A stretch of DNA of 64,000 bases from Chitinophagaceae bacterium (GTDB taxonomy: Bacteria > Bacteroidota > Bacteroidia > Chitinophagales > UBA10324): NCBI GenBank assembly GCA_947474435.1, contig CANJII010000010.1:1-64000 (forward strand), written 5' to 3'. The position numbers and the translations under genes were made by a program. Positions 20,477 to 25,041 of the stretch are shown here, piece by piece; within the stretch, counting starts at the first letter, position 1, and each line of letters starts with the position of its first letter. Under the pieces are notes generated by a model. It was not told the origin of the DNA and ran no database searches. It saw only the letters and a program-made list of their open reading frames with translations.

Positions 20477-23167
20477 ATGAATAAAATCAGAATCGGAATT
20501 TTTTTTGGTGGCAGCTCACGCGAGCGCGAAATATCATTTGCCGGAGGCAGAACAGTTTACGACAATCTTAATAAATCCATTTTCGAACCTGTTCCAATTT
20601 TCATTGACAGCTTTCACAATTTGATTCTGCTCGACTGGCAATACATTTATAAAGGAAGCATCCGCGATTTTTATCCTTCTGTAAATTTTATTCCAACTAC
20701 CAAACATCCCTTCCAGGTATATATTGAATCGTTAGGGAAATTGCCTCGCGAAAAACAAGATGAAATTATTTCAACAGTAGGAAAAAAAATTCTTCCGAAC
20801 GAACTTAACTCCATTATTGATTTTGCTTTTCTCGCACTGCATGGTTCGTATGGCGAGGACGGAAGTATACAAGGCATTCTTGATTTTTATCAGATACCAT
20901 ATTCAGGTTCCGGCATTCTTCCTTCGGCAATCGGCATTAACAAAGCATTTCAGAAGCACATGATGAACGAAGGTGGTTTTACTCCCACCCGTTTCAAAAC
21001 TGTTACACGCGAGGAGTGGCTGCATAGTGTTAAAAATTCCCTCATCGAAAAAAGTGTTACAGCAGTCGGATTGCCGTTGGTTATTCGCCCGGCTAATCAG
21101 GGTTCATCCATTGGTGTTTCCATCATTCACGAAAAAGATTTTGCTTTAATCACAAAAGCCATTGATAAAGCATTTTTCTTTTTTGAATGGAATGCTACTG
21201 ATTGGAAAAAGAAAAACGAGGAAGAAAAAATAACTTTCTTAAATAACCTGTGTGATATACGGGAGAATGTGGGATTGCCATTGCGTGTAAACGGGAAAAC
21301 ATATTTTCATCCTGAAGAATTATTTCAGTTGTTTGAAAAATCTGTTGCAGAAAATATTTCACAATTAATTCTTGAAGCTGATGATGCAGAGATTGAAATT
21401 CTGATTGAAGAATTTATTGAAGGAAAAGAATTTTCGTGCATCGTTGTGGTTGACGAAAAAAATAATCCTGTTGCCCTTCCGCCTACTGAAATTGTAAAAG
21501 GAAAAGAAGTTTTTGATTACCGTTCAAAATACCTCGCCGGACTTTCGCGAAAAATAACCCCCATACAAATTCCCGACGAACAAATTGAAGCCATTCGAAA
21601 AGAGTGCGAAAAACTTTTCAGTTTTTTCGGTTTTCATGTTTATGCTCGAATTGATGGGTTCATTCGCCCCGATGGAAAAATTATTCTCAACGACCCGAAC
21701 ACAACAAGTGGCATGTTACCCTCTTCGTTTTTCTTTCATCAGGCGGCAGAGATTGGTTTAAATCCTTCGCAGTTTCTTTCGTTCATTATTCACACCAGTG
21801 TGCGAGAGCGCATGCGCTCGAATGTGCGACCTGCGATTTACGAACCACTGTTACAGCGACTCAATAATGGAATTGATAAACTATTACAACACGCAGAAAA
21901 CAAAATCCGAATTGCAGTTATTCTCGGCGGCTATTCCACCGAGCGCCACATCAGTGTGGAGAGCGGACGAAATATATTCGAAAAGCTCGCCAGCTCCGAT
22001 AAGTACCAACCTATTCCTGTTTTCCTTACTGGTAATAATGAGCAACACCAACTTTACCAGATTCCGATTAATCTTTTATTGAAAGATAATGCCGATGACA
22101 TTCGTGAAAAGATTCAGCACTTTTCATTTCATCCTGTGATTGAAAAAATAAAAGCACAGTGCAAAAACATCACACAAAAATTTTCTTCCAGCAATTATTT
22201 ATTTGTTCCGAAACAACTTCCATATGCTGAATTGCCCAATGAAGTGGAAGGAGTTTTCATTGCATTGCATGGTCGCCCGGGCGAAGATGGCAGTGTGCAA
22301 CAGCAGCTGGAAAAAGTCGGATTGCCATACAACGGCAGTGGAGTTTCTTCTTCGCAAATCACCATCAATAAATTTAACACCAACCAATTACTGTTACAGC
22401 ATGGTTTTCACGAAGCGCTGCAATCTCTTGTTTATAAAAATGATTGGAAGGCAAGCGAAGAAAAATTTATTGATGCCATTCTTGCCAAACATAAATTGCC
22501 CATCATCACCAAGCCCGTGGATGATGGTTGCAGCAGTGCCGTAAAAAAAATAAAAACGCGCGACGAGTTAATCGCTTTCAGTCGACTGATGTTTCGTGAT
22601 CAGGAATTGCTGAATACAAATGAAGCTGTTACACTTCACCTGAAGCCGAAAGAAGAGTTTCCGCGCAAAGAACAATTTTTAGTGGAAGATTTAATTGCTG
22701 CTAATGGTGCTAAACATTTTTTAGAAATCACTTGCGGAATGCTCACTCATCACAACGATGACGGAACAATTTCCTATGAAGTATTTGAACCAAGCGAAAC
22801 ACTTGCAATTGCTGATGTGCTTTCGCTCGAAGAAAAATTCTTAGCGGGCGAAGGACAAAATATAACTCCCGCTCGATTCGGAAAATCAAAAGAAGAATAC
22901 ACAAAAATTGCAGCTCAGGTAAAAACAGATCTGGAAAAAGCAGCGCGGCTTTTAAATGTACAGGGCTACTGCCGCATTGATGCATTCGTTCGCATTGATG
23001 CAAACCTCAATGCCGAAACAGTGGTGATAGAAGTTAATTCTCTTCCGGGAATGACACCTGCCACCTGTATTTTTCACCAGGCAGCTATCAATCATTACAA
23101 GCCGTATGAATTCATTGATAAAATTTTAGAATTCGGGCGGACTAAGAAGGTTGCTGTGGTTGTGTAA
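20477..23167 (+). CDS. Double-length D-alanine-D-alanine ligase (two fused Ddl units)
   Basis: 896 residues in one unbroken frame, about twice the usual Ddl length. Two complete Ddl-like ATP-grasp units are joined at about residue 474. Ddl makes D-Ala-D-Ala for peptidoglycan precursors in the cytoplasm. Unit 1 has GGSSREREIS (catalytic Glu16), LHGSYGEDGSIQG, the GSS loop (Ser210), FDYRSKY (Tyr348) and metal ligands in NDPN (Asp406, Asn408, where Glu is usual). Unit 2 has GGYSTERHIS, LHGRPGEDGSVQ and intact EVNSLPGM (Glu852, Asn854). However, Cys685 replaces the loop serine, and Leu784 replaces the catalytic tyrosine. Unit 2 may be regulatory, degenerate or specific for something else. The convergent neighbour is an M15-like peptidase. 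Confidence 0.9.
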   Translation: MNKIRIGIFFGGSSREREISFAGGRTVYDNLNKSIFEPVPIFIDSFHNLILLDWQYIYKGSIRDFYPSVNFIPTTKHPFQVYIESLGKLPREKQDEIISTVGKKILPNELNSIIDFAFLALHGSYGEDGSIQGILDFYQIPYSGSGILPSAIGINKAFQKHMMNEGGFTPTRFKTVTREEWLHSVKNSLIEKSVTAVGLPLVIRPANQGSSIGVSIIHEKDFALITKAIDKAFFFFEWNATDWKKKNEEEKITFLNNLCDIRENVGLPLRVNGKTYFHPEELFQLFEKSVAENISQLILEADDAEIEILIEEFIEGKEFSCIVVVDEKNNPVALPPTEIVKGKEVFDYRSKYLAGLSRKITPIQIPDEQIEAIRKECEKLFSFFGFHVYARIDGFIRPDGKIILNDPNTTSGMLPSSFFFHQAAEIGLNPSQFLSFIIHTSVRERMRSNVRPAIYEPLLQRLNNGIDKLLQHAENKIRIAVILGGYSTERHISVESGRNIFEKLASSDKYQPIPVFLTGNNEQHQLYQIPINLLLKDNADDIREKIQHFSFHPVIEKIKAQCKNITQKFSSSNYLFVPKQLPYAELPNEVEGVFIALHGRPGEDGSVQQQLEKVGLPYNGSGVSSSQITINKFNTNQLLLQHGFHEALQSLVYKNDWKASEEKFIDAILAKHKLPIITKPVDDGCSSAVKKIKTRDELIAFSRLMFRDQELLNTNEAVTLHLKPKEEFPRKEQFLVEDLIAANGAKHFLEITCGMLTHHNDDGTISYEVFEPSETLAIADVLSLEEKFLAGEGQNITPARFGKSKEEYTKIAAQVKTDLEKAARLLNVQGYCRIDAFVRIDANLNAETVVIEVNSLPGMTPATCIFHQAAINHYKPYEFIDKILEFGRTKKVAVVV

Positions 23168-23274: not shown

Positions 23275-23940
23275 TTATAACAAATCTTTCCAGTTTTTAA
23301 ATTCAACATGCACATGCGAAGCTTCATTAAAAACCAATGATGCTCCAAGTTCCTTGCTTATTCGCGTAGTTTCTAAATTATTTCCTCCAATATCAAGCGC
23401 ATAACCAGTGCCGTGCTTGCTGGTACCCGGAGCTGCCAATGGAGCTACAGCAAGCCACCACATTTTTTCATCCTTTGGCGGATTCGATTTTTTTGAAGCC
23501 GTTACCACCTTTGATTTTGTAAGAACTGATTCAAAATCAATTTTTGATTGCTTAATAATTTTATGTCGTGCAATAATCTGTGCTTCGGAACTATTATCTT
23601 TTGTTTGTCCAACCTGTTTATCTAATCTGTAACCTGTAAGCGGCGTGGGAGTGTTTTGATACAACGCATTTTCTATCGCTGTAGCAGCCCTGTAAAATTT
23701 ATCATCCAATCCTTCAATTTCAAAGAACTCATCAAGTTTAGAAGCCAGTAAATCAAAGTGGTAATTTACTTTCCAAAACTGATCGCTGTTATCGAGATAA
23801 CCGGCAAGACAATAACATTCTTTAGGATAATAATTAAATACTGCATCAATTATTTTCGTGGTGATATCAATTTCTTTAACCGCCGGTTTAACAAAAGTCT
23901 GACGAGTGTGCTGTTTAAGTTCTGGAAGTTTAATTGCCAT
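23275..23940 (-). CDS. M15-like D,D-peptidase family protein
   Basis: 221 residues, no signal peptide. The C-terminal third carries SKHGTGYALDI, which fits the zinc-binding SxHxxGxAxD motif of M15 (VanY/VanX-type) peptidases, and SHVHVEF, which fits their final HxH. These enzymes cut D-Ala-D-Ala or related peptidoglycan bonds. The N-terminal 150 residues are not recognisable. The lack of a signal peptide suggests action inside the cell (as VanX does) or an unusual export route. It is convergent with the double Ddl gene and divergent from the PASTA gene. The family call rests on two short motifs, so I am only moderately sure. Confidence 0.65.
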   Translation of the reverse strand: MAIKLPELKQHTRQTFVKPAVKEIDITTKIIDAVFNYYPKECYCLAGYLDNSDQFWKVNYHFDLLASKLDEFFEIEGLDDKFYRAATAIENALYQNTPTPLTGYRLDKQVGQTKDNSSEAQIIARHKIIKQSKIDFESVLTKSKVVTASKKSNPPKDEKMWWLAVAPLAAPGTSKHGTGYALDIGGNNLETTRISKELGASLVFNEASHVHVEFKNWKDLL

Positions 23941-24240: not shown

Positions 24241-25041
24241 ATGTGGCAATTTCTTAAAAGCAGAATTTTTCTTTACAACATACTTGGCGCTATCGCTGTT
24301 TTCATCATAGTGTTCTGGCTTGGCACATCAGCGCTTAACAGTTACACTCGACACGGCGAAACCATTACTGTTCCTGATTTGTCGGGAATGACTTTTGAAA
24401 AAGCAAAACAAATTTTATCAGACAGGAATTTGGAAATTGCCATAGCCGATTCAGCTTTCAACGATAAGAAACCAAAGCTGGCAGTGCTGGAGCAAAATCC
24501 GGGTGCCAATTCAAAAGTTAAAGAAGGAAGAACCATTTACTTAACTGTAAATGCAAAAATTCCACCCCAAGTAAAAATGCCTGACCTCACTGATAACTCA
24601 TTGAAGCAGGCACAAATGATTTTGGAAAATATTGGTTTACGGGTTGGTCAGTTAATTTATAAACCGGACTTAGCACAGAATGTTGTGTTAGACTGGATGT
24701 GCCGAGGGCGACACATTACCATTGGCGATAACATAAAAAAAGGATCAACCATCGATTTGATTTTAGGTGATGGATTGGGGAACACTGAAGTGGAAGTGCC
24801 TGAATTGATTGGTCACACTTTGCGTGAAGTGAAATTTATTTTGGATGCATCTTCCTTAAACCTTGGTGCAGTGATAGCTGATAACACTGTTCGCGGCGAT
24901 TCGTTGAATGCAATTGTTTACAAGCAAACACCCTCGCCGATTGATACTGATAATAAATTAAATCTGGGTGAAGCAGTGGATGTTTATATCACTTTAGATC
25001 AATTCAAATTAGATACCCCGGAAGAAGAAGAAATAAAATAA
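24241..25041 (+). CDS. PASTA domain-containing membrane protein
   Basis: 266 residues. A short cytoplasmic N-terminus, one membrane helix (about 12-32) and three PASTA domains follow: about 42-110 (VPDLSGMTFEKAKQIL), 112-180 (MPDLTDNSLKQAQMIL) and 184-256 (VPELIGHTLREVKFIL). PASTA domains bind peptidoglycan stem peptides or beta-lactams and are usually found on penicillin-binding proteins and Ser/Thr kinases. Here there is no kinase or transpeptidase domain, a type common in Bacteroidota. The protein would be anchored in the inner membrane facing the periplasm. Its location beside the Ddl and M15-like genes fits a cell-wall role; that is inference. Confidence 0.9.
   Translation: MWQFLKSRIFLYNILGAIAVFIIVFWLGTSALNSYTRHGETITVPDLSGMTFEKAKQILSDRNLEIAIADSAFNDKKPKLAVLEQNPGANSKVKEGRTIYLTVNAKIPPQVKMPDLTDNSLKQAQMILENIGLRVGQLIYKPDLAQNVVLDWMCRGRHITIGDNIKKGSTIDLILGDGLGNTEVEVPELIGHTLREVKFILDASSLNLGAVIADNTVRGDSLNAIVYKQTPSPIDTDNKLNLGEAVDVYITLDQFKLDTPEEEEIK

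Follow-up and report, generated by a model that had tools for sequence, protein, structure and literature searches.

The window analysed in this study, a stretch of DNA of 64,000 nucleotides, carries a gene whose product consists of two D-Ala-D-Ala ligase (Ddl) units joined in tandem (Table 1). An earlier note, made from the sequence, had described a single unbroken 896-residue frame with two Ddl-like units. This description holds: the frame is intact, and Pfam and AlphaFold2 agree on two units. Dala_Dala_lig_N was matched twice and Dala_Dala_lig_C across both halves of the protein, and the two units share 26% identity in BLASTP. Structure prediction, which the earlier note had proposed, gave two complete Ddl folds in an AlphaFold2 model built with 86 natural relatives (mean pLDDT 88.9, pTM 0.89). 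Residues 2-453 and 476-888 of the model each match Ddl structures in the PDB, with Z scores of 31-37. An annotation or assembly artefact was ruled out as the source of the fusion, since the full-length open frame is found in many genomes.

Table 1. Position of the tandem ddl gene, its parts and its downstream neighbours in the window
Feature	Position	Strand	Remark
Tandem Ddl CDS (P0001)	20477..23167	+	896 aa; sole PF01820 protein in the genome
Unit 1, Tyr-type Ddl, ~residues 1-450	20477..21826	+	PF01820 at residues 5-145, PF07478 at 291-438; PDB Ddl fold 2-453
Glu16 (DdlB Glu15), unit 1	20522..20524	+	110/110 tandems
Ser210 (DdlB Ser150), unit 1	21104..21106	+	109/110 tandems
Tyr352 (DdlB Tyr216; not Tyr348), unit 1	21530..21532	+	110/110 tandems
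Asp406 (DdlB Glu270, metal ligand, Glu to Asp), unit 1	21692..21694	+	109/110 tandems, 12/12 split, 21/21 truncated
Inter-unit helix/linker, ~residues 451-476	21827..21904	+	helix 452-475 in the AlphaFold2 model
Unit 2, Phe-type Cys-loop Ddl, ~residues 477-890	21905..23146	+	PF01820 at 21908-22339; fold 476-888
Glu489 (DdlB Glu15), unit 2	21941..21943	+	110/110 tandems
Cys685 (DdlB Ser150), unit 2	22529..22531	+	109/110 tandems
Phe788 (DdlB Tyr216; not Leu784), unit 2	22838..22840	+	110/110 tandems
Glu852-Val853-Asn854, metal ligands, unit 2	23030..23038	+	Glu852 and Asn854 in 110/110 tandems
Thr863-Cys864 (DdlB Ser281-Leu282), unit 2	23063..23068	+	Thr 109/110, Cys 97/110 tandems
Gene with weak VanY match (D-Ala-D-Ala carboxypeptidase, M15/VanY-like), below Pfam cut-off	23275-23940	-	between tandem ddl and PASTA gene
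PASTA-domain membrane protein, usual downstream neighbour of tandem ddl	24241..25041	+	PASTA homologue at 47/80 named tandem loci, 3 fused in frame

The tandem protein is the only Ddl of its host. In a Pfam scan of the host genome, which is 99.9% complete, Dala_Dala_lig_N (PF01820) was confined to the tandem Ddl. A cryptic second Ddl was sought among the other PF07478 matches and rejected, as these are biotin carboxylase (accC), a biotin-carboxylase-type protein, of which just 149 residues were scanned, and pieces of carbamoyl-phosphate synthase (carB). MurF is also present. Because the tandem is the sole Ddl of a genome with MurF, it must be the source of D-Ala-D-Ala, provided that the precursors of the organism are ordinary, and on the same grounds unit 1 is most likely the site of this synthesis. 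The earlier note had reasoned that the novelty would fall away if the genome had no other Ddl and both units were ordinary, or if the fusion were a described family. There is indeed no other Ddl. One cannot, however, call both units ordinary, and a search of the open literature yielded no description of a Ddl-Ddl fusion.

The active-site residues of both units were assigned by alignment with DdlA and DdlB of the MG1655 genome. The alignment bears out Glu16, Ser210, Asp406, Cys685, Glu852 and Asn854 as originally placed, and the Glu-to-Asp change in the metal site of unit 1 (DdlB Glu270 to Asp406) is real. The equivalents of DdlB Tyr216 had been misplaced by four residues: Tyr348 and Leu784 align with Tyr212, and the true equivalents are Tyr352 in unit 1 (KYLAG) and Phe788 in unit 2 (KFLAG). 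The multiple alignment with DdlA and DdlB supports both, BLASTP between the units pairs KYLAG with KFLAG, and phmmer against 1iov and 1iow places Phe788 on residue 216, the Y216F mutant of DdlB (1iow) slightly outscoring the wild type against unit 2. The change in unit 2 is thus Tyr-to-Phe and not Tyr-to-Leu. Two further sets of differences had been overlooked. Ser281 and Leu282 of DdlB form part of the second-substrate carboxylate site, and unit 2 has Thr863 and Cys864 in their place; unit 1 differs at DdlB Pro275 and Leu282 (Ser411 and Phe418). In DdlB numbering, the substitutions of unit 2 are S150C, Y212L, Y216F, S281T and L282C. The Glu15-Ser150-Tyr216 triad is therefore present in unit 1 (Glu16, Ser210, Tyr352) and fails in unit 2, where Cys685 and Phe788 replace Ser150 and Tyr216; this sets unit 2 apart from ordinary Tyr-type D-Ala-D-Ala ligases. 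The statement that the second unit lacks two catalytic residues is overstated, as its ATP/metal site is fully conserved. In the alignment, the ATP/metal ligands are complete in unit 2, and unit 1 has Glu270 changed to Asp and Lys144 present as Lys or Arg.

The arrangement is widespread. Tandem Ddl was found in 15 of 16 genomes of the window's family, the lone exception being an incomplete genome. Of the genomes sampled from the window's order, 115 of 396 have tandem or tandem-derived Ddl (E below 1e-60), as do 190 of 241 genomes of a second Bacteroidota order (E below 1e-40), the latter count taking in truncated and split forms. Named carriers include Pontibacter, Rufibacter, Rhodocytophaga, Adhaeribacter, Marivirga, Aureispira, Lewinella and many Saprospiraceae and Chitinophagales MAGs. 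In a sample spread over the phylum, most genomes carry one single Ddl of the ordinary kind. Two forms were irregular: L119 in G782, a tandem of 849 aa in which only fragments of unit 2 were matched, and L198 in G842, a truncated protein that carries an additional insertion between residues 282 and 294.

The two-unit Ddl is kept nearly unchanged in more than 100 species. The ATP/metal residues Lys679, Glu737, Glu750, Lys787, Arg833, Asp835, Glu852 and Asn854 of unit 2 are invariant in 110 of 110 tandems, and the equivalents of Arg255 and Lys215 are fully conserved in this unit. Chance does not account for the arrangement or the odd residues, as both persist across 110 tandems that have otherwise diverged. 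It could be argued that unit 2 is a decaying duplicate, as two of its triad positions are off canon and it is truncated in one clade. However, its mean pairwise identity over the 110 tandems (57%) is not below that of unit 1 (56%), and dN/dS was 0.04-0.10 in both units against close relatives, the most distant comparison lying near synonymous saturation. Both units are under purifying selection, and we reject decay as very improbable and contradicted by these data. In the gene tree, which has a midpoint root, sequences of unit 1 and of unit 2 fall into clearly separate clades; the tandem may have arisen by duplication or by the joining of two Ddls.

We propose that the protein is a two-headed Ddl. 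Unit 1, with its Tyr-type site, would make D-Ala-D-Ala for MurF. Unit 2 would be active, as an ATP-using Ddl-type site in which the serine loop, the omega loop and the second-substrate pocket were remodelled and then frozen, and it would join D-Ala to a different or additional acceptor, like the Phe-type D-Ala-D-Lac ligases. The N domain of unit 2 would dock on unit 1, taking the place that a second subunit holds in the usual Ddl dimer. We infer the activities, the acceptor and the pseudo-dimer, and give the whole a little less than an even chance of being correct. A second acceptor is favoured because the changes of unit 2 sit at the specificity positions Ser150 and Tyr216 while its ATP/metal residues are conserved. 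Phe or Tyr at the Tyr216 position of DdlB sets depsipeptide versus dipeptide activity (PMC8807649), and Leuconostoc Ddls have Phe there (PMC4895993). Substitutions at Ser150 and Tyr216 give DdlB weak D-Ala-D-Lac activity (Park and Walsh, as reported in PMC7691350). In the structural comparison of unit 2, two D-Lac ligases rank first, in a tie with D-Ala-D-Ala ligases. Phe at the Tyr216 position can also support D-Ala-D-Ala synthesis, as established for LmDdl2, which weighs against the proposal. In LmDdl2, moreover, Ala and not Cys takes the place of Ser150 (PMC7691350), which weakens the D-Lac parallel. Among the options that the earlier note had raised, two substrate specificities is on sequence grounds the best-supported reading.

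Unit 2 has been cut back in one lineage. Families f11, f76 and f78 have a truncated protein of ~560-660 aa, and the profile of the unit 2 N domain matches nearly all of the relics (E 7e-29 to 9e-6). The relic N domain was predicted by AlphaFold2 to fold confidently (pLDDT ~85-95, pTM 0.89). Each truncated-form genome scanned has one Ddl N domain only and no other Ddl. In the gene tree, the truncated proteins group together in a single supported clade, placed among the unit 1 sequences. This clade has Pro at position 275 in 21 of 21 and Leu at position 282 in 17 of 21, canonical residues that are absent from unit 1 of the tandems; Pro411 and Leu418 may be either reversions or retained ancestral residues, and the forks of the tree are drawn open. 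Because the clade keeps unit 1 and a folded relic without any other Ddl, comparison of these sequences suggests that unit 1, together with the relic, suffices. The suggestion of an active plus a modified unit fits these lineages well, as it does the intact triad of unit 1. The loss of unit 2 in a whole clade nevertheless speaks against a special product, which would be dispensable there.

The persistence of a folded N domain in the predicted models fits a docking role. It also favours another explanation, that unit 2 is a regulatory and structural partner, which would bind ATP and D-Ala or D-Ala-D-Ala, hold unit 1 in a dimeric state and tune it without a product of its own. A dimer is the usual and recurrent feature of the Ddl family (PMC6899670), and both units decay together beside a stand-alone Ddl, as described below. 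On the other hand, every ATP/metal ligand and the Arg255 and Lys215 equivalents are conserved in unit 2; a scaffold would not need these residues. One genome also seems to get by with only unit 2. We consider a regulatory and structural partner without a product of its own unlikely.

This genome belongs to family f93, with genomes of 0.7-2.7 Mb, in which some members have the fused protein and others encode the two units in separate genes, hundreds of kb apart in closed genomes. The separate unit 2 genes keep Cys685 in 10 of 11 and Phe788 in 11 of 11, and the retention of unit 2 as a gene of its own in these small-genome relatives speaks for a second acceptor. In G854 (96% complete, 0.7 Mb), unit 2 is the only Ddl found (L185:5752-7032) and MurF is present; the missing unit 1 could be an assembly gap. 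The serine loop of unit 2 is changed from GCS to GSS in G854 and its sister G923 (Cys685 to Ser), and G854 also has Ala688 changed to Gly. Regain of Ser and Gly where unit 1 is missing again favours a second acceptor for the usual unit 2. The reciprocal loss, with unit 1 alone in the truncated clade and unit 2 alone in G854, could instead mean that both units make D-Ala-D-Ala as a covalent heterodimer with different windows of affinity, pH or drug sensitivity and no new product. The degeneration of the pair beside a stand-alone Ddl agrees with this explanation. However, neutral redundancy leaves the near-invariant Cys/Phe/Thr/Cys set of unit 2 unexplained, and the return of Cys to Ser in G854 and G923 also argues against it. 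We regard two D-Ala-D-Ala sites as slightly less likely again than a regulatory partner, and the second acceptor stands first in our ranking.

The fate of the tandem beside an extra Ddl bears on all of these readings. For 47 genomes, a tandem sequence could be set against a count of Ddl domains: the tandem was intact in 42 of 42 without an extra Ddl and damaged in 5 of 5 with one (Fisher p 6.5e-7, a value that overstates independence, as the five genomes represent three lineages). This suggests that D-Ala-D-Ala supply is the constraint on the tandem. It further suggests that unit 2 is not retained for itself once this constraint is lifted, which again counts against a special product of unit 2. 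The sole loss of Cys685 among the 110 tandems is in G761, in which Ser210, Asp406 and Asn408 are also changed; this genome has a further Ddl gene, though the contig in question spans only 4 kb. In G557, G539 and G663 (L136, L138 and L142), all of which carry a stand-alone Ddl, the tandem-derived protein is full-length (1226-1255 aa), but most of its catalytic residues are gone, in unit 1 as in unit 2. The depleted proteins are still encoded by open frames and may have a new role.

The neighbourhood supports a role in the cell wall through the PASTA gene, not a specific product. One locus (L014:1450-5049 in G178) encodes an in-frame Ddl-Ddl-PASTA triple fusion of ~1200 aa, and many other tandems of family f3 have frames of 1200-1300 aa. 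The gene between the tandem and the PASTA gene raised the question of a VanX/VanY-type resistance locus. This was rejected, as the M15/VanY-like match is below the cut-off in Pfam and no homologue of the gene was found at the 80 named tandem loci.

Ddl is essential, the target of D-cycloserine and the pivot of vancomycin resistance. The tandem Ddl is an overlooked version of this core enzyme and drug target in two large Bacteroidota groups: in two orders a double-headed form replaces the ordinary enzyme, with one site altered at the positions of product specificity. That these orders use the fused unit 2 to make a second D-Ala-X building block besides D-Ala-D-Ala is possible, although we hold it with more doubt than the two-headed enzyme itself. 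If true, covalently coupled ligases would give the cell-wall precursors a second ending, or yield a side product, that has gone unrecognised. The double-headed form makes the evolution of Ddl specificity and dimerisation directly testable, with a natural set at hand of fused and split units, unit 1 alone, one case of unit 2 alone, and tandems relaxed by a second Ddl.

Compared with the stand-alone DdlA and DdlB of E. coli (PF01820 plus PF07478), both units share the fold, the ATP/metal site and the equivalents of Glu15 and His63, and unit 1 shares the Glu-Ser-Tyr triad. The tandem differs in the fusion itself, in Cys/Phe for Ser150/Tyr216 in unit 2, and in Asp for Glu270 and Ser/Phe for Pro275/Leu282 in unit 1. 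The whole protein exceeds the cut-offs of NF002378 and TIGR01205, with a score that sums two units. With the Phe-type D-Ala-D-Lac ligases (LmDdl2, 1ehi; DdlB Y216F, 1iow), unit 2 shares Phe at Tyr216 and an altered Ser150 position, and 1ehi is its best structural match, tied. The likeness is one of sequence and fold only: unit 2 has Cys and not Ala at Ser150, a changed second-substrate site and a Tyr-type unit fused to it, and the tandem scores 190 bits against the NCBIfam D_ala_D_lac cut-off of 550 bits. The NCBIfam cut-offs for D-Ser ligases were likewise not reached. The VanA/VanG-type D-Ala-D-Lac and D-Ala-D-Ser ligases share the fold and an altered acceptor region, but the scores of the tandem are far below the cut-offs (136 of 775 bits for VanA, 235 of 495 bits for VanG) and its locus gives no evidence of a resistance operon. 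The known Ddl fusion, MurC-Ddl of Chlamydiaceae (NF011171), also places a Ddl unit in a fusion for cell-wall synthesis, with MurC and not a second Ddl as the partner (PMC3935232). The tandem scores 171 bits against the cut-off of 1015 bits for that family. The large subunit of carbamoyl-phosphate synthase differs in family and chemistry and serves as a precedent only, for it combines in one chain two homologous ATP-grasp halves, each with a specialised job.
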